Below are positions 1,675-16,639 of a stretch of 21,732 nucleotides of DNA, piece by piece. The position numbers were made by a program, and so were the translations under genes. The notes beneath the pieces were generated by a model that had not been told where the DNA came from, made no database searches, and saw nothing but the letters and a program-made list of their open reading frames with translations. Location: positions 1 through 21,732 of the IMG/VR virus record IMGVR_UViG_3300037137_000454. One strand, 5' to 3'. Every line of letters starts with the position of its first letter. Position 1 is the first letter of the stretch. This stretch comes from a virus.

Positions 1675-1957
1675 CGCTGGAAAAGAGGGACTGCCAGCCG
1701 AGTTGGAGATTCAGGCTTTGGTGCCGACTGAGGGTAACGAGGAGCAACCAATTATCTTAGCTATCGTGCTCACATCGGCACCAAAGTTTCCGTTCAACTT
1801 CGTGTTCGAGACGAAAGATCCCAAGCTTGTCTCGCGCATGGCTTCGGAACTTGTGGACATCGCGGAACGCATGATCGCACATCCTGCCAACGAGGAGTTC
1901 ACGGGGACACACGTAGGTACCGACAGCGGTACTGACAACGCAACGAAAGGACACTAA
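1667..1957 (+). CDS. Small protein of unknown function
   Basis: A 96-residue protein whose ATG overlaps the end of the exonuclease gene by 8 nt, so it is probably translationally coupled to it. I do not recognise a family. The middle contains a predicted beta-strand-rich stretch (IILAIVLTSA and FNFVFE) followed by an amphipathic helix (ELVDIAERMIA), and the tail is Thr/Gly/Asp-rich and probably disordered. No signal peptide, Cys motif or catalytic motif is visible. Its place between the exonuclease and a candidate ssDNA-binding protein suggests a recombination accessory role, but that is only from context. Confidence 0.6.
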   Translation: MNNAGKEGLPAELEIQALVPTEGNEEQPIILAIVLTSAPKFPFNFVFETKDPKLVSRMASELVDIAERMIAHPANEEFTGTHVGTDSGTDNATKGH

Positions 1958-1961
1958 TCCT

Positions 1962-2570
1962 ATGCCCCAACAGGCAAATGCTGAGCAGGACGAGTTCGAC
2001 GCCGCAGCGGAGGCTGCGGTGGCTGTGAGTGGCTATGAAGCGACGTTGCTGATGCCCGCACAGGATCAGCGCGAGTACACCCTGGTGCCCCGCAACACGC
2101 TGTGCACCTTGAAAATCCTGGGCTTCGAGTTGGCGACGCAGAATCCTGCGAAGCCTGCAATCATCTGTCGCCTGGGTGTGGACGCTCCCGAGCAGTACGC
2201 GAACGGGGCGAGCACGTTCAGCACCTTCTTGAGCCTCAACTCGACCATCGGTGAAGGGAAGAAGTCGAGCGGCTGGATCATGACGGTGATGCAGTTGGCC
2301 TGGCTGTACGCCGGGGCCGAGCAGGTTACGTCGGACGAGGGGAAGGAGAAGATGGTCAACGCCGTCCTCCGTCAGTTCCCGCACATCGAGTTGGAGGACT
2401 ATCCGGCCTTCCACGCGATGCTCGTGCAGAACGCCAATGAGTTGCTGAAGGGCGCGACGTTTAAGACGAAGATCGGAGTGCAGTTGGGCAAGCAGAAGCC
2501 CGACTCGACCGAGAAGTACCCCGACAAGCAGACCCTCGGGACGATCGACTACCCGAAGGCAGGCAAGTAA
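1962..2570 (+). CDS. Candidate ssDNA-binding or recombination accessory protein
   Basis: A 202-residue soluble protein starting 4 nt after the previous gene. The N-terminal about 20 residues are acidic and Ala-rich. A conserved-looking globular region follows, with beta-strand-like segments (TLCTLKILGFELA, AIICRLGV) and a helical part, and the C-terminal tail is Lys/Asp/Pro-rich (LGKQKPDSTEKYPDKQ). Phage modules made of a Sak4-like ATPase, a Cas4-like exonuclease and a third small gene often carry an SSB-like third member, and this gene is in that position. I see no clear OB-fold signature and no acidic C-terminal tip of the DDDIPF kind, so the assignment is contextual. It is the last gene before the structured RNA block. 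Confidence 0.6.
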   Translation: MPQQANAEQDEFDAAAEAAVAVSGYEATLLMPAQDQREYTLVPRNTLCTLKILGFELATQNPAKPAIICRLGVDAPEQYANGASTFSTFLSLNSTIGEGKKSSGWIMTVMQLAWLYAGAEQVTSDEGKEKMVNAVLRQFPHIELEDYPAFHAMLVQNANELLKGATFKTKIGVQLGKQKPDSTEKYPDKQTLGTIDYPKAGK

Positions 2571-2580
2571 CATGAGCAAC

Positions 2581-2662
2581 GCTGCCCACGCCCTGGATCG
2601 GTTACACGAGCCGCTCAAAGGCCAGACGTGTAGTGGGTTTGACTCCCATGTGGGCAGCGCCA
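2581..2662 (+). tRNA. tRNA-like element 1, atypical core
   Basis: The ends pair as a perfect 9-bp stem (2581-2589 with 2650-2658), followed by a G and an encoded CCA (2660-2662). A T-arm is present at 2633-2649: stem GTGGG/CCCAT with loop TTTGACT. Between 2590 and 2632 I cannot fold a standard D-arm and anticodon arm. Only short pairings (TCG/CGA, CTGG/CCAG) are seen, and no convincing anticodon. The coaxial acceptor plus T-stem would be 14 bp instead of the usual 12. It could be a very diverged tRNA, a decayed tRNA gene or a tRNA mimic. Confidence 0.4.
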
Positions 2663-2667
2663 ATCAT

Positions 2668-2735
2668 GGTCGCAATCGTCTAACTGGACAGGTACCCGTC
2701 GTGGGTGATGTAGGTTCGAGTCCTACTTGCGACCC
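2668..2735 (+). tRNA. tRNA-like element 2 with shortened loops
   Basis: Acceptor stem GGTCGCAA/TTGCGACC (2668-2675 with 2727-2734) and a canonical T-arm GTAGG-TTCGAGT-CCTAC (2710-2726). T8 is in place, and the D-arm GTCT/GGAC (2678-2681 with 2686-2689) resembles Gln/Glu-type tRNAs, but its loop is only 4 nt and lacks the usual GG pair. The anticodon arm TACCC/GGGTG has a 5-nt loop (GTCGT) instead of 7, so no anticodon can be assigned. CCA is not encoded. The T-arm and acceptor are strong; the core looks deleted. Confidence 0.45.
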
Positions 2736-2739
2736 TTCT

Positions 2740-2816
2740 GGTAGCACGCGGTCAGCGCGGCGATTAAGCGTCCCTCCGAGGACGCATCGCGGCGGGTGCG
2801 AATCCCGTCTGCTGCC
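2740..2816 (+). tRNA. tRNA-like element 3, resembling tRNA-Arg(CCG)
   Basis: Acceptor GGTAGCA/TGCTGCC (2740-2746 with 2810-2816, one G-T pair). T-arm at 2791-2809 with loop TGCGAAT and a 6-bp stem. The arm at 2768-2785 is GCGTCC-CTCCGA-GGACGC, close to the anticodon arm of bacterial tRNA-Arg(CCG), with T33 and CCG followed by A, but its loop has 6 nt instead of 7. A further 5-bp pairing (GCGAT 2760-2764 with ATCGC 2786-2790) extends this arm across a TAA bulge, and CGCG/CGCG (2747-2750 with 2756-2759) could be a D-arm. CCA is not encoded. It may be functional, decayed or a mimic. Confidence 0.42.
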
Positions 2817-2829
2817 CTCTCATTCTGAC

Positions 2830-2937
2830 ATGGCGGATAAGCTCTCAGTACGGACTGTAAGGATGACCACGCTGAATAAGCGGTTGTCACGACCAAACCA
2901 GACGTACTGCATCGGGAGCAAAGAGGGAACACGCCAT
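2830..2937 (+). ncRNA. Nested long-hairpin RNA domain
   Basis: ATGGCG (2830-2835) pairs with CGCCAT (2932-2937). Inside it, GCTCTC (2841-2846) pairs with GGGAGC (2914-2919), then AGTACG (2847-2852) with CGTACT (2903-2908) across a 5-nt bulge. Inside that, an imperfect hairpin around 2863-2889 closes on CGCT/AGCG. The nesting of three helices in order over about 108 nt favours a real fold. I recognise no known RNA class. Confidence 0.42.
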
Positions 2938-2964
2938 CCAACGCGATCCGAAAGTGTCTGTAGA

Positions 2965-3054
2965 GCGGTCAGGCACGCGCGGAGGAATGGTCCGCCCCAC
3001 TCATGTGTCGCGCAGGCCACGCGACCTTCCCTCCGGATTAGGGTGACCGCACCA
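2965..3054 (+). ncRNA. Cloverleaf-like element with encoded CCA end
   Basis: GCGGTCA (2965-2971) pairs perfectly with TGACCGC (3044-3050), followed by A and CCA (3052-3054), the layout of a tRNA 3' end. Three hairpins lie inside, each with a 7-nt loop: GCGGA/TCCGC (2979-2995), GTCGCG/CGCGAC (3007-3025) and CCCT/AGGG (3029-3043). Against a standard tRNA, the third loop (CCGGATT) is not a T-loop, no U33 is seen, and the linkers between arms are too long. It may be a tRNA mimic or a chance cloverleaf. Confidence 0.35.
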
Positions 3055-3083
3055 GAAAACCGGTACCTCACGATGGTGGCCAG

Positions 3084-3108
3084 AGCCCCCCGTTATGAGC
3101 GGGGGGCT
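3084..3108 (+). terminator. GC-rich 9-bp hairpin before the UDG-like gene
   Basis: AGCCCCCCG (3084-3092) and CGGGGGGCT (3100-3108) pair perfectly around a 7-nt loop (TTATGAG). There is no T-tract after it, so it is not a standard intrinsic terminator. It ends 5 nt before the ATG at 3114, where it would compete with ribosome access. It could be an RNA 3'-end structure, a processing site or a translational brake. Confidence 0.5.
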
Positions 3109-3113
3109 ACGCC

Positions 3114-3929
3114 ATGATCTACCGAGACTACGTTGAAGAAAGGAAGTCCCATGGCGCGCTCTGTCACATCTGTCCATTCAAGGGTCAACGCCGTGCAGGT
3201 CACGATGGACCGGCAGAGGCGGACCATATCTACATCCTTGACACGCCAACTCGCGGAGATTCGGAAAATCTACTCGGTAAAACGCGGTATGGACGCATCC
3301 TCAATGATAAGGTTGGATATTTTGTCAAGAAGAATTATCTCGCTCCGCTGGGCCTTGTGGAGTTGGTCGTAAATGACAAGAAACCAGAGTACCCACGCAT
3401 TGGCAAGCTCAAAGTCCACATCATGTCCGTCACCATGTGCCATCCACCAGATATCCGAAATCTGAATAACGCAGTCGTGCGCAAGGCGGTGAAATGCTGT
3501 GCCGATTCAGCACGTTGGTTCCTGAACGAGCGCATCGCTGCCAACCCGAACATCATGCTCAACCCCGCAGGGGCTATCGCACTCTCACTCGTACGCAGCA
3601 TGGAGACACCCATCGAACCCTATCGTGGGCGCTTCCTGGTGAAAGCCAAAGAGCCTTTTGCCTACGAAGATGAAAATGTAATTGCAAGTGTAGTGTTGCG
3701 GGGCGCGAAGCCCAAGGAGGCATGGTGGCCAGGCGTAGAGAGTGGATTGAAGCACTGGATAAAACTCTGGCGGAAGCTAGAGCGCGATATCGTGAAGCGT
3801 TCTGGGAAGGCTATGGAAACGCAGCTTTTGTTGGACAACCCATGGCTCGTGGAGTGGACGAAGGTGTGGAAGAAGCAGAAGGCAGTACGAGCCAAGGCAG
3901 CGAAAGACCCACAATGCATCCTCATCTGA
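3114..3929 (+). CDS. Uracil-DNA-glycosylase-superfamily-like protein (family 4 type), diverged
   Basis: A 271-residue protein. The N-terminus has Cys17 and Cys20 (CHICP), and later Cys109 (VTMCHPP) and Cys128 (KCCAD). This two-plus-two spacing matches the 4Fe-4S cysteines of family 4 uracil-DNA glycosylases. ADHIYILDTPTRGDSENLLG sits where those enzymes have the GEAPG motif and the glycine-rich loop, and the stretch after Cys109, with an Asn-rich turn and a helix, matches the second cluster region. The expected HPS-type active-site motif near the C-terminus is not visible, and the GEAPG Glu is replaced by Asp, so activity is uncertain. The C-terminal 70 residues are Trp/Lys-rich and helical. 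It starts directly after the GC hairpin. It might repair uracil or protect modified DNA, or be a binding protein derived from a UDG. Confidence 0.5.
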   Translation: MIYRDYVEERKSHGALCHICPFKGQRRAGHDGPAEADHIYILDTPTRGDSENLLGKTRYGRILNDKVGYFVKKNYLAPLGLVELVVNDKKPEYPRIGKLKVHIMSVTMCHPPDIRNLNNAVVRKAVKCCADSARWFLNERIAANPNIMLNPAGAIALSLVRSMETPIEPYRGRFLVKAKEPFAYEDENVIASVVLRGAKPKEAWWPGVESGLKHWIKLWRKLERDIVKRSGKAMETQLLLDNPWLVEWTKVWKKQKAVRAKAAKDPQCILI

Positions 3930-4096
3930 ACTGTCCGCTATGTCCCGCGTACGGTGTAGTGTCACACGGTGAACTCGATCATCGTGAGTTGACGTTGTTC
4001 CTCGTTGAGCATGGTCACAGCCGCAACTGGCAAGACGTAGCGGCCAAGCTCTTGAAGCAGTTCACCCTAACCAAGAAGGAGAAGTCCAATGCGTAG
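3914..4096 (+). CDS. Small CxxC protein
   Basis: A 60-residue protein, starting at ATG 3914 and overlapping the previous gene by 16 nt. The frame is open back to 3722, and that ATG has an AAGGAGG in front of it, but with only 1 nt of spacing and a 207-nt overlap; the short form is preferred. It contains NCPLC near the N-terminus and a His/Asp-rich middle (HGELDHREL, EHGHSRNW), so half a zinc site is plausible. The tail is Lys-rich. No family is recognised. Confidence 0.5.
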   Translation: MHPHLNCPLCPAYGVVSHGELDHRELTLFLVEHGHSRNWQDVAAKLLKQFTLTKKEKSNA

Positions 4097-4442
4097 ATTC
4101 ACATTCGTACTCGGTTTCTTACTGCTCGCAGCCCCTGCGAGTGCGGCATCCCTCCGTATCTGCATGGTTGATCCGCTTCCCGCTGATACTGAAACGCTAG
4201 AGTTTTCCATCGACGCGGCAGTCATCGCTGCCGATCTGCTACCAGGAAGCACGCTCACAGGAACCACACGCTGCAAAATCATTCCATTCCCCGCCACACT
4301 CACACGTGGCGATCATGCAGCTACAATACGTGCATTCAATGTCATTGGCGAAGGGGGTCCGGTGTCCGCACCGGTCACGTTTCGTGCGCCTACTATCCCT
4401 GCCGGGGTCACGAACGTTACGGTTCAGGCTGTCGCACCCTGA
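4089..4442 (+). CDS. Exported single-domain protein, fibronectin type III-like
   Basis: A 117-residue protein overlapping the previous gene by 8 nt. It begins with a clear Sec signal peptide: MRR, a hydrophobic run (FTFVLGFLLLAAP) and an ASA cleavage site near residue 19. The mature part of about 97 residues is beta-rich and ends with the pattern HAATIRAFNVIGEGGPVSAP, which resembles the last strands of an Fn3 or Ig-like domain. Cys25 and Cys62 could form a disulfide after export. A secreted protein among phage replication genes is unusual; it could act in the periplasm or on the host surface, for example in superinfection exclusion, but there is no direct evidence. A 36-nt gap follows. Confidence 0.65.
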   Translation: MRRFTFVLGFLLLAAPASAASLRICMVDPLPADTETLEFSIDAAVIAADLLPGSTLTGTTRCKIIPFPATLTRGDHAATIRAFNVIGEGGPVSAPVTFRAPTIPAGVTNVTVQAVAP

Positions 4443-5460: not shown

Positions 5461-5750
5461 GGGTCGAGCACATTCCTGATGTCACACCTCGCTTCGTGTC
5501 TCGTGAAACAACGACACGTCAAGAGTACTGTACCTATATTTCAAAGCTCGAAAATGAACGCTCTTGTTGGGAGTCTCGCATTCGTGTGTGCCAGGAACGT
5601 GAGTTCATGTACAAGAAGATGGTGAATGACATGGCCGCATTCCTCATGGCGACATTCCAAAGCGGGCATGAAACCGTCAGCGAAAATGCGGCCAAGGCTG
5701 GCGAGCTAATCGAAGCCATTCAAGCATGCATGCGAAGGCTTGAAGCATGA
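5457..5750 (+). CDS. Coiled-coil hypothetical protein
   Basis: A 97-residue protein; ATG 5457 shares ATGA with the previous stop, preferred over the GTG at 5445. After a short N-terminal segment it is almost entirely helical, with heptad-like patterns around residues 22-95 (YISKLENERSCWESRIRVC, then AAKAGELIEAIQACMRRLEA). It probably dimerises. There are several Met and three Cys but no metal motif. It overlaps the next gene by ATGA. Confidence 0.6.
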   Translation: MRVEHIPDVTPRFVSRETTTRQEYCTYISKLENERSCWESRIRVCQEREFMYKKMVNDMAAFLMATFQSGHETVSENAAKAGELIEAIQACMRRLEA

Positions 5751-6553
5751 GGCCGTCTGGCACCCTCGTTCTGCCGATGTTGAATCCGAACCAGTTCTTC
5801 TCCAGTTCGGTCCTCTCGTTCACTGCTGCCGAGGACTGGAAGAAGGCGATACGGATTCAGCGTGACGGGCCGACGAGGGTGCCACTCCCAATGGAGGAGT
5901 GGCAGTGGCGTCCAAGTGTGCATGATGTTAAGTCATACTTTTGGCGTATGACTGCTTTTCTTGATAACACTATTAATGGCTTTGGTGATCCCGGCCCGTG
6001 GTCCATCGACTTCGAGGCCACCCTCAAACGCGAGATTGTATGTCTCGGGATATGGAGTTGTCATGAACCTACCAAACATCGCGGTATCGTCATCCCTTTC
6101 CTTTCCCAAGGTGGGGTGCCCTACTGGAGTCCTGAAGATGAACTCGTCGTACTTGATCTGGTGCGGGCCTTCTTCACTGATGCGCGTCGGCACAAGATCG
6201 GCCAGAACACGGTCGGCTACGACACCGGGTACCCGCCCTTCAACCAACGCTCTCTCATCAAGCAAGCGTGGGGCATAGATGTCGCAGGCATCCTTGGTGA
6301 CACGATGGTGGCGCACCACGTCTGCTTCCCAGAGTTGCGTCACGGACTTGCATTCCTCTCATCCATTTCCACGGATCTTGGACCTTACAAGGAAGAACTC
6401 TGGGATGCGGAACAAGGTCAAGAGGACGACGCAGAGAAGGACTGGACCCGTATCCTCGAACGCTCTGACATGAAGGTGCGGGTGTACTGTGGCAAGGATT
6501 GCTACGCGCAAGCGGAGGTATGGAATGCGTTGGCCTTGGAGATGGCGCCATAA
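5747..6553 (+). CDS. Stand-alone DnaQ-like 3'-5' exonuclease (DNA polymerase I type)
   Basis: A 268-residue protein. All three exonuclease motifs of the family A polymerase proofreading domain are visible: ExoI with Asp88 and Glu90 (SIDFEAT), ExoII with Asn154 and Asp159 (IGQNTVGYD), Asp185 (GDTMVAH) with PELRHGLAFL, and ExoIII with Tyr247 and Asp251 (YCGKD). These residues bind two metal ions and remove mismatched 3' nucleotides. The polymerase domain is a separate gene at 7550-8926, with three genes between, so this phage splits the enzyme into two chains. The first about 60 residues have no clear homology and are Pro/Trp-rich, perhaps a docking region for the polymerase. Upstream coupling is by ATGA. 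Confidence 0.8.
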   Translation: MRPSGTLVLPMLNPNQFFSSSVLSFTAAEDWKKAIRIQRDGPTRVPLPMEEWQWRPSVHDVKSYFWRMTAFLDNTINGFGDPGPWSIDFEATLKREIVCLGIWSCHEPTKHRGIVIPFLSQGGVPYWSPEDELVVLDLVRAFFTDARRHKIGQNTVGYDTGYPPFNQRSLIKQAWGIDVAGILGDTMVAHHVCFPELRHGLAFLSSISTDLGPYKEELWDAEQGQEDDAEKDWTRILERSDMKVRVYCGKDCYAQAEVWNALALEMAP

Positions 6554-6767: not shown

Positions 6768-7143
6768 AGACTTCCTCGGCGCCCTCATTGGCGGGATGGC
6801 TGTCACCGCAGCGGGGCTCTATCTCCCAGGCACCAAGGTGTTCTCATTCCCAAGCGTCATCGTACCCGTAGGTGCATTTTCACTTGAAAGCTTCGACGCC
6901 ATACTCAAGGCAGTATACCGAGACATGGTGTTAGACTTGTTGCAACAGGAACCGACGTTCTACGCGCGGTTCCGTGGAGAGGAGATGTCGTGGACTTCGT
7001 TGGATTCCCCAAGATCGCCCGCTACTCACGGCCTTGCATTGTCACCGAAAAGATTGACGGTACCAATGCCCAGGTATGGATACCCACTGAGGAGCAACGC
7101 GCCGAACTCCCCGACAAATGGCGTGCTCTCCCTATCATTGTAG
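6757..7143 (+). CDS. Twin-arginine (Tat) signal protein, 3' half overlapping the ligase gene
   Basis: From ATG 6757 the product starts MTRRDFLGALIGG: a twin-arginine motif (T-R-R-D-F-L) and a hydrophobic run of about 17 residues, the form of a Tat signal. A hydrophobic linker follows, then a helical segment, roughly FDAILKAVYRDMVLDLLQQ, which loosely resembles the N-terminus of some phage capsid proteins; this is weak. The last 50 or so residues are Ser/Pro-rich and lie over the first 154 nt of the ligase gene in another frame. Either the overlap is real, the gene was frameshifted, or the true end is near 6990. No cofactor motif is visible. Confidence 0.45.
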   Translation: MTRRDFLGALIGGMAVTAAGLYLPGTKVFSFPSVIVPVGAFSLESFDAILKAVYRDMVLDLLQQEPTFYARFRGEEMSWTSLDSPRSPATHGLALSPKRLTVPMPRYGYPLRSNAPNSPTNGVLSLSL

Positions 7144-7559
7144 CCTCGCGCTCACGGTGGATGTACCCACCTGATGACAACCATGGCTTCGCGAAATGGG
7201 CCTATGAAAACGCAGAATGTCTACTTGAACTCGGGCCTGGCCATCACTTCGGGGAGTGGTGGGGGCAAGGCATTCAACGCAAGTATGGGCTTACCGAACG
7301 TCGTTTCAGCTTGTTCAACACCGAGCGTTGGCGTGAGAGTCGCCCGGCATGCTGCCATGTCGTACCTGTGCTTTGGGAGGGCTTGTTCGATGACCTCCAG
7401 GTGCAGACACACATCGACCAGTTGCGCGATGGTGGGAGCGTTGCGGCCCCCGGCTTCATGAAGCCCGAGGGCATCGTCATCTTCCATCCTGCATCGGGCC
7501 GTGCGTTCAAGAAAACAGTCGAGAAAGACGAGCAACATAAGGTCGCAACGTGGGCATGA
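6990..7559 (+). CDS. RNA-ligase-like nucleotidyltransferase
   Basis: A 189-residue protein starting at GTG 6990, behind a purine-rich site (GGAGAGGAG). The covalent nucleotidyltransferase motifs are in order: motif I with nucleophile Lys21 (TEKIDGTNAQVW), motif III around Glu89 (HFGEWWGQGI), motif IIIa (RRFSLFN), motif IV (KPEGIVI, Glu160) and motif V (FKKTVEKDE, with Lys174/175). These residues form the ligase-AMP intermediate and seal nicks. The short length and lack of an OB domain fit the single-domain RNA ligase group more than DNA ligases. It may repair tRNA cut by host anticodon nucleases or join nicked RNA; a DNA ligase role cannot be excluded. The gene overlaps both neighbours. Confidence 0.72.
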   Translation: MDFVGFPKIARYSRPCIVTEKIDGTNAQVWIPTEEQRAELPDKWRALPIIVASRSRWMYPPDDNHGFAKWAYENAECLLELGPGHHFGEWWGQGIQRKYGLTERRFSLFNTERWRESRPACCHVVPVLWEGLFDDLQVQTHIDQLRDGGSVAAPGFMKPEGIVIFHPASGRAFKKTVEKDEQHKVATWA

Positions 7560-8926
7560 ACTGTCGGCACATTCACGATTACATCGGGCTCCCACTCTTG
7601 CCCATTGTGCAGGATCTTGGGTTGCGTGGTATCCCGGTCAATCTTGCGACACGCGATGCGCTGCTCGACACGCTGAACCGCAGAGTCGGGGTCCTCGACC
7701 TACGCTTGATGCAATCGGGCATCGAGAACCCTAGCTCCGACTTGAAACTCGGGCTCGAACTACGGGCACTCGGTGTGCCCTTGACGGCAATGACGCCAGG
7801 AGGAGGCCAGTATAAACTTGACTCAGAAATCCTAGGACGGAAGAACTACGACCTCAACACAAAGTACATCGAAGCTGGCAAGCCACCACGTTTCCCATTC
7901 ATTCCTGACTTGTTGCTCCGCAACAAGTTGTCCAAAGCCTGCGAATGTCTCAACGCCATTGGCGTCTGTGATGACGGGCTGATCCGCACCGCACTCAAGT
8001 CCTGTCACACGGCGACAGCGCGCTATGCGAGTAGCGGATTCGGGCGCAAGGGGAAGCCGGGGTTCTGTCCAGTATGCCGTGTATGGGGAGAGCATGGAAC
8101 CAATCTACAAAATATCAGCCGAGGATGTAGCATCTGCGGATCACCGCCAGCAAAGTGTGTTTGCCCAAGCGGAGGCATTCATATCAAGTCTATTTTCCAA
8201 GCTTGGCCTGGTTGGCGGCTTGGCGAATGGGACTACAGTGCCCTTGAGCTTAGAGTCATGGCGTATCGAATCCGTTGCCGTAAGCTCATCGAACGTCTCG
8301 AATCAGGTATTGATCTCCATACTCTGCACGCCAAGATCATGTTCCCCGGTCTGGAGATTACTACGCGCCGTAGGACCCTGGCTAAGAACTTCATCTATGC
8401 CATTCGCGGAGCGGGCGGGAATCGTGCCGTCCAGCGGGTCCTAGCGCAACAAGGAGAGTACATTGAACTCCATGAAATCCAACAGTGGCGGCTCCGCATC
8501 TTTGCAGAGTATCCTGAAATTCCAGCGTGGATTGAAGAAGTTGGTGCTGAGCTTACCCGAGCAGGTACAAGTGGAGAACGTCGTATCATACGTAATGCTT
8601 TCGGACGGCCGCGTGTACTACTGGGATATGAACCTATCAAGGAAGCCCTTGCCACCGAAATCTCAGGAACATCTGCTGACATCATGAACTGTGTGGCCGT
8701 GCGCCTTGCGTACGAACAGCCTGAACACTTTCAGTATGTCGTCCTTCAAGTTCACGATTCATGGCTTGTGCATGCACCAGAGGGTATCTTTCCTACCGTG
8801 ATGAACGCCGTGCGGTCTGAAATGGAACGTCCAGTGTGGCATTGGGATCGTTTTGCCACCTATCCAGTCGAAGCGAAAGCGGGGGAGCGGTGGTCAGACT
8901 TGACCGCCTGGCAGGAGGCAGCATGA
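7550..8926 (+). CDS. Family A DNA polymerase, polymerase domain only, with Cys-rich insertion
   Basis: A 458-residue protein. GTG 7550 has AAGG 7 nt upstream; ATG 7556, which shares ATGA with the ligase stop, is the alternative. There is no exonuclease domain; that is a separate gene at 5747. Motifs: NLQNI at 185-189, motif A WDYSALELR with Asp228, motif B from Arg275 to Lys279 and Tyr283 (the T7 Tyr526 position), and motif C VHDSWLVHA with Asp403, where the usual HDE has Ser. Motif B (KNFIYAIRGAG) is one residue shorter than T7's and lacks the O-helix Tyr. Three Cys pairs flank NLQNI: Cys173/176, Cys193/196 and Cys203/205, suggesting a zinc-binding insertion. With the RepA-like ATPase next door this is the likely replicase. 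Confidence 0.82.
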   Translation: MGMNCRHIHDYIGLPLLPIVQDLGLRGIPVNLATRDALLDTLNRRVGVLDLRLMQSGIENPSSDLKLGLELRALGVPLTAMTPGGGQYKLDSEILGRKNYDLNTKYIEAGKPPRFPFIPDLLLRNKLSKACECLNAIGVCDDGLIRTALKSCHTATARYASSGFGRKGKPGFCPVCRVWGEHGTNLQNISRGCSICGSPPAKCVCPSGGIHIKSIFQAWPGWRLGEWDYSALELRVMAYRIRCRKLIERLESGIDLHTLHAKIMFPGLEITTRRRTLAKNFIYAIRGAGGNRAVQRVLAQQGEYIELHEIQQWRLRIFAEYPEIPAWIEEVGAELTRAGTSGERRIIRNAFGRPRVLLGYEPIKEALATEISGTSADIMNCVAVRLAYEQPEHFQYVVLQVHDSWLVHAPEGIFPTVMNAVRSEMERPVWHWDRFATYPVEAKAGERWSDLTAWQEAA

Positions 8927-12971: not shown

Positions 12972-13071
12972 GACAGCCCCACTCGATCCCTTGTAAGTGA
13001 ATGAAGCGCGGCTCAAGCGGCACGTCGCAGCTTGGGCACATCTGAATCGTCGGAATGCTACTCGTCATCAT
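12814..13071 (-). CDS. Small zinc-finger-like protein, last gene of the - strand unit
   Basis: An 85-residue protein. Its start is one of two adjacent ATGs (13071 or 13068) that overlap the end of the large virion gene; the later ATG before CPSC (13041) is a further option. It has CPSC and CRPC about 55 residues apart, with Cys and His between (GCPNPHF), so one zinc site is plausible. The C-terminus is basic (LKKLRRKGRCRPCEAARIREE). It overlaps the convergent + strand gene over 12814-12971. Function unknown. Confidence 0.55.
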   Translation of the reverse strand: MMTSSIPTIQMCPSCDVPLEPRFIHLQGIEWGCPNPHFLEGDSEQMEFVETPRGLKKLRRKGRCRPCEAARIREELARQFDSSPR

Positions 13072-16000
13072 AGGCAGGATCGTTATACACGTCTGTCTCG
13101 TGACGCGCAATCGAGGCGTCGATCTCCTGGCGATGCTCAGGGTACCGCTGATAGAGTGTGTTCAACTGATCGTTGGTGATCCCCTTCCGCGCCTGCTTCT
13201 GCTCCTCGGTCGCGGGTTCGATCGCGTGTGGCACGCCACCAAGTGCTTTCCCGAATGACACGAGCGGGTGGTATTGCTTCTGCCGTCGTGGGAAGCCCGT
13301 CTCATTGTCGATCTGCCATGCCTCGGGACTGTTCGTCGCCATGGAAATGAGCGACGCAGTATCCGTAGGCACACGCCCTTGGGATACCATGTCCCGTACC
13401 GTCTGGTAGGGCCAGAAGGATCGGAGGAACGATTCAGCAAACGAGGGACGCTCGAACGAGTCGGCAATCCCTCCAGTCTTGGGGTCGATCTCTCGACCCG
13501 TGTACGAGGACATCGCGCCACGGTAGCGTTCGCGCGTGAACAGGTTGACCCCCAAGGCTTGTTCCAGGGCTACCTTGATGACCGGATTCATCATCTGGAC
13601 CATCTGCTCACTCAGATGGCCGTCCATCTGAGAGAAGGGATTCAATCCCTTCGTGCTGTACACCCACACACGCTTCTTGCCGGGATTCTCGGGATCACCC
13701 GCATCCTCGGCACTGATCGGAATGGAATCTTGAAACTGTGACGGCACGTCACGGTTCCATTGCAAGCCGAACATCTTCAACTGCTGGTGTAAGTCCTCAG
13801 TCGCAATCTGTCCAAGCTGCCGTGCGACCTGACCCTTGAGAGGGTGCTCGAAGGGGTAGCGCGTGATGAGGTCCGTCGAGTGCTTGAAGAACTTGTAGTA
13901 GGGCGTGAGACGCCGGAACATCATGCGCTCCAGCGGAGTTGTACGCTCGTAGTTGTTGAAGAACCGGTTCACCTGGCGCAAGCCTGCGCGGTATTCAGGG
14001 ACCTTCATGGTGACAGTCGCGCCCGCCTTGGCGAACCCGTCGATCTTCTCGGCCAAGTCCATCGCAGCACCCATGTGCCCCGTCATCCGTGCGACGCGTG
14101 TCGTGGCGTTGTCGGACAACTCATAGAACAAGGCCGCGCCACGGAAGGCGCTTTCAACGTTACCGTTCACTTGCTGCATTTTCGCAGCCCAGTTGCCAAG
14201 CATGCGGACGGGTGCCGTCGCAGCACGCCCGAGCATCCCAAGCTCGCTGCCTGTGGTCTGTACCTTGTGACCAACGGTACCCGTGGCAGCGTTCAGGGAG
14301 AGTTGCAACCCACCCGACCGAATCCCTGGAAGGTCGAATACCTTCGCGAGCTTCCCCGATCGCTCACTTGTGAGCAAGCCTGCCTTGTTCCCCATGGCGA
14401 TGCCCATGTTCGTGAGTGCCGTCAGCCCCCGTGGTGTAAAGGGATGGACGCCCATCATGGCCGCGAACCCTGTGTTCCCCACGATGTTGTTCACGACGCG
14501 TGAGACACGGACATTCAAGTTCGTCCAGTTCCACCATTGGGTTGCCCCGTCGATGGCGCGGATTACGCTGTTGGCAGATGGCTCCATGGAATCGCGGAGC
14601 GTCTTGAACGAGTGGCCCAGGGCGGTAGGGATCTTGTACAGGGGAATCTCTTTCCGCAAGCGGAAGATGTCACCCTTGTCGGCTTGGCCAACCATCGCGT
14701 GCATGATGTCCGCGAAGTTGACCTGACCTACGGGCGTACCCGCAGGATAGTTGATCCCACCGCGCGGGCCAGTGGCCGTCGAAGGATGCGAGCCGGGCGG
14801 GCCGGTCACATGGTCGATGGTCATTTCACTGGCCTTCATGCCCGTCGTTTTCTGGTCGATCGTCTCCATCAGACGGGTGAGCATATGTTGGCCATGCTCC
14901 TCAACCAGATCATCCGTCAGCATCAAGCCAGGATGGAACGGCTGGTGCGTACCCTTGATGACATCGGGGTCCGTTTTCCAGTTCCACGTTTTCTTCTGTC
15001 GCGAAGCGGTGCCCGCCTTGACGGCATCCTCAGCAGCCTCGTAGGACATCTGCGTCCAGGCTTTCCCCTTCTCCATCGAGGAGTATGCTCGCAGCAACTG
15101 GTTGATGGGGTCTTGGTGCTCCATCACCCCGGCGCTGTACAGCGCGTAGGTGTTCTCCTTGTAGGGAGATGCCTCACCCATGCGCTCTAGGATGTTCGAG
15201 ATCGTGCTTTGCTCGCGCGTATAGACTTCCGCAGAGTGCGGAAAGTACATACCACCTTGCGGACCCATGAGGGTAACCGCTTCCTCGGGAGTCGTCCGTG
15301 TAGGACGAGGGAGTCCAGCTTCGGCATCACGCGCGGTCGCGAACATGTTGGACTTGACAGCAGCTTCAATGTCGCCACGGTACTTACGCTCCTTTGCGAT
15401 GTCGAGCGAGGTCCGCATTTCCCCGGTCGCGACACGCTTCTGATGCTCCATGTTATCGACAAGTGCCTTGTTGACACTTTCGGTGATGAAGGACTGCACC
15501 TCGGGATGGAAGGGATCGAAGTTGTCCCCGAGAAAGCCATGAGCATCGTTGAAGGCTTTCTCCATCGCGGTCTGCTTGACCTGATCGGGCGTGAGTCCAC
15601 GCATGTACTCAAGTTCCTGCTGGAGCGGAAGATACTTTTGACGCGCAGCTTCGAGCGCATCGGGACGAATGGTGTCCCCTTTCAGGGGCACCCACTCACC
15701 CGTGTGCGTCATCAACTGCTCGCTGATGGGGCGCTCGAAGTTCACCCGCCCGCTGACGTAGGGGCGGAACACCATCTTCTCGGCTTCGTTCAGGCCCTCG
15801 AATACGGCATGCACGTCACGCTCATGCTTCGCCTCATGGGCTGACATGATGGCGCTACGCTCTGCGATACCATCCGTGACGCGTTGCGTAGCCTTGAGCC
15901 CCGCGACAACCTCGGGCGCGAACCGGTTGAGGATCTTCTCACCGCTGTTGACTGCGATGTTGATGGGATCGAGCAACTTTGCACGCGCGGTCTGGTTCTC

Positions 16001-16639
16001 GAAGAAGTCAATGGTTTTCGTGGCCTTGGCCGCGTTGCGAGTCGCGTCAAGAAAGACTTGCCCGACTTCGGTCGCGGGCGCCCCGGATGCCACCGCCAAT
16101 GCCTCGGCAGCGCGTCCACCTTCGGCCAGGCCGCGCGTACCAGCGGTCGCCGCCCTGGTAGCTAGGCCCAGGCCCCCGGTCGCAACCTGGGCCAAAAGAG
16201 ACGCATCCATGAGGGTATCGAACGGCTTCTCGTAAAAACGCCGCGCGAGCATTTGCGGGACGTTCTCGTCCGGGTGCGGGGTGTAGTTCTCCTTGTAGCT
16301 GTCGTACATCGCCCCTGCAATTTTCGTGCCAGTGTCGATGGGGTGCTTCGTAGCCTCGTAGGTGTTGACGGGATGCCGTACAGGATAGGTTAGGGCAAGG
16401 AATGTGCCCTTGGCGAAGTCCTCGACGTTCGAGCCGAGGTTGGTAAGGAACCCATGGACGTTCGGCAAGCCATCTTGGATGGGCTTGTCGAGGATCTTGG
16501 GCTGCATCTCACTGATGACGCGACGCCCGGTTTCGTCATCGACGTTGAGTGTTTCACGCTCGTAAGGACCGTAGGCTTCGGGGTCCTTCTCTGCTTCAAA
16601 CGTCGGGTCGAGATAGTCTTGAAGATCGGCCAGGGCCAT
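13058..16639 (-). CDS. Large (1193 aa) virion/ejection-type protein
   Basis: A long, mainly helical protein with no signal peptide. An Ala/Gly-rich hydrophobic stretch lies near residues 155-185. The region about 890-950 holds the pattern RTTPLERMMFRRLTPYYKFF followed by HSTDLITRYPFEHPLKG, which I associate with large phage proteins of the internal-virion or ejected type. The C-terminal 200 residues are Tyr/Arg-rich and acidic at the end. No transglycosylase, protease or polymerase motif was found by eye. It follows the 462-residue gene with a 1-nt stop/start overlap and is the longest gene here. Its position beside lysis genes and another virion-like gene supports a structural role, but no homologue has been checked. 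Confidence 0.55.
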   Translation of the reverse strand: MALADLQDYLDPTFEAEKDPEAYGPYERETLNVDDETGRRVISEMQPKILDKPIQDGLPNVHGFLTNLGSNVEDFAKGTFLALTYPVRHPVNTYEATKHPIDTGTKIAGAMYDSYKENYTPHPDENVPQMLARRFYEKPFDTLMDASLLAQVATGGLGLATRAATAGTRGLAEGGRAAEALAVASGAPATEVGQVFLDATRNAAKATKTIDFFENQTARAKLLDPINIAVNSGEKILNRFAPEVVAGLKATQRVTDGIAERSAIMSAHEAKHERDVHAVFEGLNEAEKMVFRPYVSGRVNFERPISEQLMTHTGEWVPLKGDTIRPDALEAARQKYLPLQQELEYMRGLTPDQVKQTAMEKAFNDAHGFLGDNFDPFHPEVQSFITESVNKALVDNMEHQKRVATGEMRTSLDIAKERKYRGDIEAAVKSNMFATARDAEAGLPRPTRTTPEEAVTLMGPQGGMYFPHSAEVYTREQSTISNILERMGEASPYKENTYALYSAGVMEHQDPINQLLRAYSSMEKGKAWTQMSYEAAEDAVKAGTASRQKKTWNWKTDPDVIKGTHQPFHPGLMLTDDLVEEHGQHMLTRLMETIDQKTTGMKASEMTIDHVTGPPGSHPSTATGPRGGINYPAGTPVGQVNFADIMHAMVGQADKGDIFRLRKEIPLYKIPTALGHSFKTLRDSMEPSANSVIRAIDGATQWWNWTNLNVRVSRVVNNIVGNTGFAAMMGVHPFTPRGLTALTNMGIAMGNKAGLLTSERSGKLAKVFDLPGIRSGGLQLSLNAATGTVGHKVQTTGSELGMLGRAATAPVRMLGNWAAKMQQVNGNVESAFRGAALFYELSDNATTRVARMTGHMGAAMDLAEKIDGFAKAGATVTMKVPEYRAGLRQVNRFFNNYERTTPLERMMFRRLTPYYKFFKHSTDLITRYPFEHPLKGQVARQLGQIATEDLHQQLKMFGLQWNRDVPSQFQDSIPISAEDAGDPENPGKKRVWVYSTKGLNPFSQMDGHLSEQMVQMMNPVIKVALEQALGVNLFTRERYRGAMSSYTGREIDPKTGGIADSFERPSFAESFLRSFWPYQTVRDMVSQGRVPTDTASLISMATNSPEAWQIDNETGFPRRQKQYHPLVSFGKALGGVPHAIEPATEEQKQARKGITNDQLNTLYQRYPEHRQEIDASIARHETDVYNDPAYDDE

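Follow-up and report, generated by a model that had tools for sequence, protein, structure and literature searches.

tRNA-like elements without a usable anticodon arm between the genes of an uncultivated virus and beside the DNA polymerase gene of Microbacterium phages

The window, by which we mean the entire stretch of 21,732 nucleotides analysed here, comes from an uncultivated virus (IMG/VR record IMGVR_UViG_3300037137_000454), of which it is a 21.7-kb fragment; in it, a block of RNA elements sits between genes of 202 and 271 amino acids (Table 1). When viral contigs were scanned, with either alignments or several of the proteins as queries, one useful relative emerged, IMGVR_UViG_3300005441_000001 (hereafter G001; 53,170 bp), which is syntenic over most of the window and whose larger genes are ~45-78% identical to those of the window at the amino acid level; the other viral contigs were near-identical or short and did not cover the block, and the genome contigs scanned yielded no relatives. 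The 202-residue protein has a homologue at the equivalent position of G001 that is 54% identical, and a DNA search of window positions 1900-4100 against phages gave no match. Since an open frame of 181 codons covers the block exactly, its coding potential was checked and the frame was rejected as a gene: its codon score is -0.25, where 11 genes range from +0.16 to +0.45, its GC content is flat by codon position (0.60/0.61/0.61, versus 0.57/0.40/0.85 in the preceding gene), and a family search with it found no match.

Elsewhere in the window, the DNA polymerase is divided between two ORFs, an exonuclease-like one and the polymerase (5747-6553 and 7550-8926), which are separated by an RNA ligase gene (6990-7559) and one further ORF and are adjacent in G001. 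A protein of 1193 amino acids (13058-16639, minus strand) has no match in PHROG or among phage records and is 58% identical in G001, and the end of the contig (21385-21699, minus strand) carries an ORF of Thr-Pro repeats (TPTPTLTPT...).

Table 1. Position and properties of the features at the RNA block and of the related cloverleaf in G001.
Feature	Positions	Strand	Remarks
Flanking gene, 202 aa	1962-2570	+	Ends 9 nt upstream of E1; no family match
Open frame, 181 codons	2572-3117	+	Spans the entire block; judged non-coding
E1, tRNA-like cloverleaf	2580-2659; CCA 2660-2662	+	Acceptor 2580-2589/2650-2659
E2, tRNA-like	2668-2734	+	Perfect 8-bp acceptor, D arm, canonical T arm (TTCGAGT); no encoded CCA
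E3, tRNA-like cloverleaf	2740-2816	+	7-bp acceptor with one G-U; no CCA
Nested helical domain	2830-2937	+	Weak: z -2.09, 8/200 shuffles equally good
Cloverleaf with CCA	2965-3054	+	7-bp GCGGTCA/TGACCGC, then ACCA; z -0.45, 59/200 shuffles equally good; no T-loop
Strong GC hairpin	3084-3108	+	z -4.36, 0/200 shuffles equally good; immediately before the next gene; no T run
Flanking gene, 271 aa	3114-3929	+	No family match; ~50% identical homologue at the equivalent position in G001
G001 cloverleaf on the plan of E1	47078-47157 (G001)	- (coding strand)	Between homologues of the two genes flanking E1; CCA encoded

The three elements E1, E2 and E3 follow one another in tandem with spacers of 5-8 nt, and each combines near-perfect acceptor and T arms with the lack of a usable anticodon arm. 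The acceptor of E1 is a perfect helix of 10 bp (CGCTGCCCAC/GTGGGCAGCG) followed by CCA or, when parsed as a tRNA, an acceptor of 9 bp with a discriminator G and CCA; it encloses a D-type arm of 3 bp, a middle arm of 30 nt with an asymmetric internal loop and a 7-nt loop (GCTCAAA), and the T arm GTGGG-TTTGACT-CCCAT. E2 has a short anticodon hairpin with a 5-nt loop (GTCGT), and a focused search of the block region assigns it to the Rfam tRNA family (RF00005) with 34.4 bits against a gathering score of 29; ARAGORN and a whole-window Rfam search at the gathering threshold, neither of which gave a match in the window, both missed it. E3 consists of a D-type arm (CGCG-GTCAG-CGCG), a two-part middle arm of 31 nt closing in a 6-nt loop, and a T arm with a 6-bp stem (GGCGGG-TGCGAAT-CCCGTC). 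In shuffle tests the folds reach z-scores of -2.89 for E1 (1 of 200 shuffles equally good), -2.65 for E2 and -2.89 for E3. E1 and E3 are the sole four-way junctions in the window without an unpaired base (block-shuffled windows contain 0, 2, 0, 0, 1 and 0 of them), and they lack the unpaired bases 8-9 and 26 as well as the variable loop; E2 has these features and a D arm in its Rfam alignment. The combined acceptor and T-arm motif is present in E1 and E2, appears in none of 300 shuffled windows and, in the other contigs tested, occurs only within genuine tRNA clusters, while a canonical anticodon arm (5-bp stem, 7-nt loop, T33, purine 37) is found in none of the three elements.

The original prediction, made from the sequence alone, had described near-perfect acceptor and T arms in three tandem elements, and this description is borne out over the first ~240 nt (z -2.7 to -2.9). 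Of the unusual cores that it reported, the 5-nt anticodon loop of E2 and the 6-nt loop of E3 stand, whereas the 4-nt D-loop ascribed to E2 depends on the parse, for in the Rfam alignment the D stem is canonical, at 4 bp, and its loop has 8 nt; the supposed tRNA-Arg(CCG)-like arm of E3 comes down to the letters CCG within its 6-nt loop. The nested helical domain placed after E3 folds weakly and is left out of the mechanism proposed below, and the cloverleaf-like element with an encoded CCA does no better than shuffled sequence and has no T-loop (Table 1); no counterpart of either was recognised in G001. A hairpin resembling that at 3084-3108 does stand ahead of the homologous gene in G001 (z -4.29).

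The suggested comparison with Rfam, GOLLD and ROOL included, returned nothing but tRNA at threshold in positions 2500-3200, with no match to ROOL, GOLLD or other RNA families; neither ARAGORN nor Rfam detects a tmRNA, YrlA has no Rfam match in 2500-3200, and no TROVE/Ro60 protein turned up in a general scan of the window proteins. A selenocysteine tRNA was considered and rejected both for E3, which scores 18.3 bits with RF01852 against a gathering score of 47, and for E1, in which the loop UCA is preceded by C, the D-type stem has 3 bp and a variable arm is missing. A promoter-like site at 2639-2667 falls within the T arm of E1 and is probably due to chance. When used alone as blastn queries, E1 and E3 gave chance-level matches only; E2 gave T-arm matches, one of which led to the Microbacterium phages of cluster EA.

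At the site of G001 that corresponds to E1 there is a cloverleaf of the same plan, with arms of 12, 31 and 17 nt (13, 30 and 17 nt in E1), an acceptor of 10 bp and no unpaired base at the junction. The two cloverleaves are identical at 37 of 80 positions and retain all 26 pairs, of which 14 are unchanged, 2 are changed on one side, 10 carry double (compensatory) changes and none is broken, a count that leans towards agreement because the two were detected by folding and then aligned on their structure. Independently of that alignment, the E1 pairing scheme, when slid over both genomes on both strands, fits fully at these two sites only, the next best reaching 22 of 26 pairs. Counterparts of E2 and E3 are absent from the G001 site, where the cloverleaf is followed by a frame of 73 codons with a ribosome-binding-like site, and this leaves their own folds and their membership of the class as the backing for E2 and E3.

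G001 also contains a second tRNA-like element of 149 nt (L012:872-1020, minus strand), which scores 34.1 bits as an Rfam tRNA and has 118 nt between intact acceptor and T arms; it is a further member of the kind at another site in the genome. A sub-threshold Glutamine-II riboswitch match (L010:10983-11038, plus strand; 25.0 bits against a gathering score of 33), antisense to a 73-codon frame of G001, is probably fortuitous.

The cluster EA phages reached through E2 encode a DNA polymerase 28% identical to that of the window, and in them the element directly precedes the DNA polymerase I gene, after a small gene. We read 19 distinct EA loci that span the diversity of the cluster and include members annotated without a tRNA: acceptor and T arms are present in all 19 elements, with 31-93 nt between them, and all 19 loci have a hairpin of 13-28 bp that ends 0-7 nt upstream of the element (in Andromedas this hairpin is embedded in a longer folded leader). 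Existing annotations of the element conflict, ranging over tRNA-Ala, Phe(AAA), Pro(ggg), Pro(agg), Ser(tga), undetermined and none, and in Rfam searches 6 of 18 EA loci come out as tRNA. Jacobs-Sera et al. (PMC7302621) described EA2-5 and EA8 with a single tRNA-Ala and tabulated EA1 without a tRNA; for the same loci we find instead that the EA1 types carry the element too and that most of the elements lack a canonical anticodon arm. E1, the G001 element and at least 5 of the 19 EA elements encode a CCA, which is absent from E2, E3 and others. Because Gordonia and Mycobacterium phages with a related DNA polymerase have no gap at the equivalent place, this polymerase does not generally come with such an element. 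The element is also absent from the distant phage MW202554, and shared ancestry between the 202-residue gene and the gene preceding the EA element was looked for and not found.

It is in the lower half that the EA elements part ways. A normal D arm is kept in Fulton, Zayuliv and Cheeto1, is rearranged in Koji and loses its signature in the EA1 types, and the lower half diverges fast even between the close relatives Fulton and Zayuliv. The element of Mercedes, 112 nt long, has a branched domain in place of the D arm and an intact top half. The elements of Aubergine, MonChoix and McGalleon come near to being tight four-way junctions; in these three phages the loop of the middle arm (GGTGTG) complements that of the D-type arm (CACACC or CACC), which suggests a loop-loop contact. 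Some features of this half do recur: the middle stem covaries in the EA1 types (AGCAAGC/GCTTGCT versus AACGCAC/GTGCGTT), and a loop motif RTYGMGC (ATTGCGC, ATCGCGC and similar) occurs in 10 of 19 EA elements, the rows being related, where shuffles would give 0.5, the remaining arms differing among the elements that bear it.

The top half behaves otherwise. A canonical acceptor of 7 bp with a T arm of 5 bp and a 7-nt T-loop is found in E1, E2 and the EA elements with a few gaps of one pair, the acceptors of E1 and E2 extending to 8-10 bp and the T stem of E3 to 6 bp. Among 13 EA elements, 97.4% of the acceptor and T cells are paired, double changes occur in 9 of 12 pairs, and the covariation score is 0.741 compared with 0.269 in shuffles, none of 500 reaching the observed value; sliding the partners by one column lowers the pairing to 55-56%. 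With the window and G001 added, the 18 elements give 97.7% pairing, double changes in 10 of 12 pairs and a score of 0.880 (0 of 500 shuffles), figures to be read with the window, G001 and several syntenic EA rows having been located partly by this pairing and the rows found by DNA similarity not. The search for covarying stems in related phages that had been recommended thus gives a positive result both for E1 and for the class as a whole. We scored as a canonical anticodon arm any plausibly positioned hairpin with at least 4 of 5 pairs, a 7-nt loop, T33 and purine 37, and found one in 2 of 26 tRNA-like elements as against 10 of 10 ordinary phage tRNAs used as controls; the two, Zayuliv and Chepli, have stems of 4 bp with 13-16 nt behind them. 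Across the window, G001 and the EA phages, the stretch between the acceptor and T arms measures 31-118 nt, and every element lies on the same strand as its flanking genes. What the window and EA elements share is their kind, and they may have arisen from tRNAs independently.

These observations may be accounted for by assuming that E1-E3 are non-decoding tRNA-like RNAs, most likely cut by host tRNA-maturation enzymes and in this way splitting a polycistronic mRNA, a reading to which we give about an even chance of being right. The elements would be former tRNAs or tRNA-shaped RNAs, set between the genes of what appears to be one phage operon, that have kept the acceptor and T arm while the anticodon arm was lost or replaced. 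RNase P and RNase Z recognise the acceptor/T half (PMC4919922, PMC11143913); because this invariant half is their target and lies at intergenic sites on the coding strand, excision by the host would be expected, RNase P presumably making the 5' cut and either RNase Z or an exonuclease forming the 3' end. Provided that the block is transcribed, such cuts would divide the message, free RNAs of tRNA size and possibly alter expression. In the EA phages the 5' cut would fall just past the hairpin, given where the hairpin ends, so that the upstream mRNA would end in a hairpin and the DNA polymerase mRNA would gain a 5' end of its own; no hairpin stands directly ahead of the window elements, and the function that we propose would be common to both. 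Three tandem copies are present though a single cut needs one, and hence the released RNAs may matter themselves; moreover, the lower half of the EA elements is partly conserved (the RTYGMGC loop and the EA1 middle stem), which pure cutting does not require. Tandem copies, loop motif and the loop complementarity in EA1 together make a decoy or mimic role of the released RNA possible. A combined proposal, in which at least two phage lineages use tRNA bodies whose lower half can be exchanged both as mRNA-cutting sites and, once free, as small RNAs that mimic tRNA and counter host defences based on it, we consider rather unlikely.

The main rival, possible but on the doubtful side, holds that it is the freed tRNA-shaped RNAs that count: to host factors that bind tRNA, for instance defences that sense or cut it, they would present a decoy or mimic, and without an anticodon loop they would escape inactivation by anticodon nucleases. 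Such a role is in keeping with the tandem, closely spaced arrangement in the window, which is that of tRNA clusters, with the retention of D and T arms in several EA types, with the rapid variation of the lower half between Fulton and Zayuliv, with the conserved loop motif, with the RNA ligase gene of the window and with the reported link between altered anticodon loops of phage tRNAs and evasion of host tRNA nucleases (PMC10264068). However, the D-arm signature is lost in the EA1 types and in E1 and E3, the CCA end is not conserved, the ligase has no match in G001, and one would expect a decoy for anticodon nucleases to retain the anticodon loop. That the elements are instead ordinary translation tRNAs, decoding despite odd arms, is how annotators and PMC7302621 have read the EA loci and would agree with the tRNA scores of E2 and of a third of the EA loci in Rfam, but the amino acids assigned to the same locus disagree, 24 of 26 elements have no 5-bp/7-nt arm bearing T33 and R37, and E1 and E3 are devoid of the unpaired positions and variable loop of a tRNA; we regard this as very improbable.

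A functionless cluster of decaying tRNAs, one of the three options of the original prediction, has in its favour that several EA elements look as if they had diverged from a normal tRNA not long ago (D arm TAGCTCAATCGGCAGAGC). Yet neutral change would break the acceptor and T stems, and these covary, with 68 double-change cells over the 18 elements, while E1 has persisted at one site through a divergence to ~50% protein identity, so that decay is largely refuted for the top half and, as an account of the whole, appears even less credible than decoding. Least probable of all is the option that E1-E3 are domains of one larger structured RNA reaching position 3113: the whole block does fold better than shuffles (z -2.76) and ends in a strong hairpin, but both downstream domains fold weakly and lack a recognised counterpart in the relative, G001 has the 73-codon frame after its cloverleaf instead, and the EA phages carry one element alone. 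The remaining option, tRNA mimics, came nearest, inasmuch as the top half is kept, the decoding half is not, and the kind is conserved elsewhere.

Phage tRNA genes are counted in hundreds of genomes and read as codon suppliers. Here an entire cultured phage group has beside its DNA polymerase gene an element, inconsistently annotated or overlooked, in which the processing signal rather than the anticodon is conserved. Cutting at this site by host RNase P and RNase Z would mean that phages punctuate their mRNA with tRNA in the manner of organelles; as a decoy, the RNA would represent a small-RNA arm of anti-defence, and both readings are open to test in laboratory Microbacterium phages. We found no description of such an element in phages in the open-access literature searched. 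The phage-encoded substrates of host RNase P, not all of them tRNAs, include the M3 RNA, the C4 antisense RNA of P1/P7 and the T4 tRNA precursors (PMC11143913), which are likewise phage RNAs, though that source does not describe them as tRNA bodies devoid of an anticodon. In the phage tRNA clusters of PMC10264068 the tRNA genes also stand in tandem and have mutated anticodon loops, although those tRNAs keep a complete anticodon arm and decode, whereas E1-E3 and the EA-type elements do not.

Outside phages, a non-decoding tRNA-like element that serves RNA processing is known from organelles and from mascRNA, both precedents for the excision proposed here. The latter, cited in PMC11658184 as a substrate of RNase P and RNase Z that is not aminoacylated, resembles our elements, as does the MEN-beta tRNA-like RNA (RF01684), in keeping acceptor and T arms around a divergent D/anticodon region; its context is that of a human lncRNA, and the G001 cloverleaf, at 17.2 bits against a gathering score of 42.5 for mascRNA-menRNA (RF01684), falls below the threshold and is therefore not a mascRNA member. 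The t-elements of plant mitochondria are tRNA-like sequences beside genes at which cuts by RNase P and RNase Z define mRNA ends, with no use in translation (PMC11658184, PMC4919922). They differ from the phage elements, at which cutting is a prediction, in being mitochondrial and not viral and in having no genome-encoded CCA, which E1, the G001 element and some of the EA elements do encode. In their tRNA-like form, their divergent middle and their position beside genes on the same strand, they nonetheless match what we find in the window, in G001 and in the EA phages.
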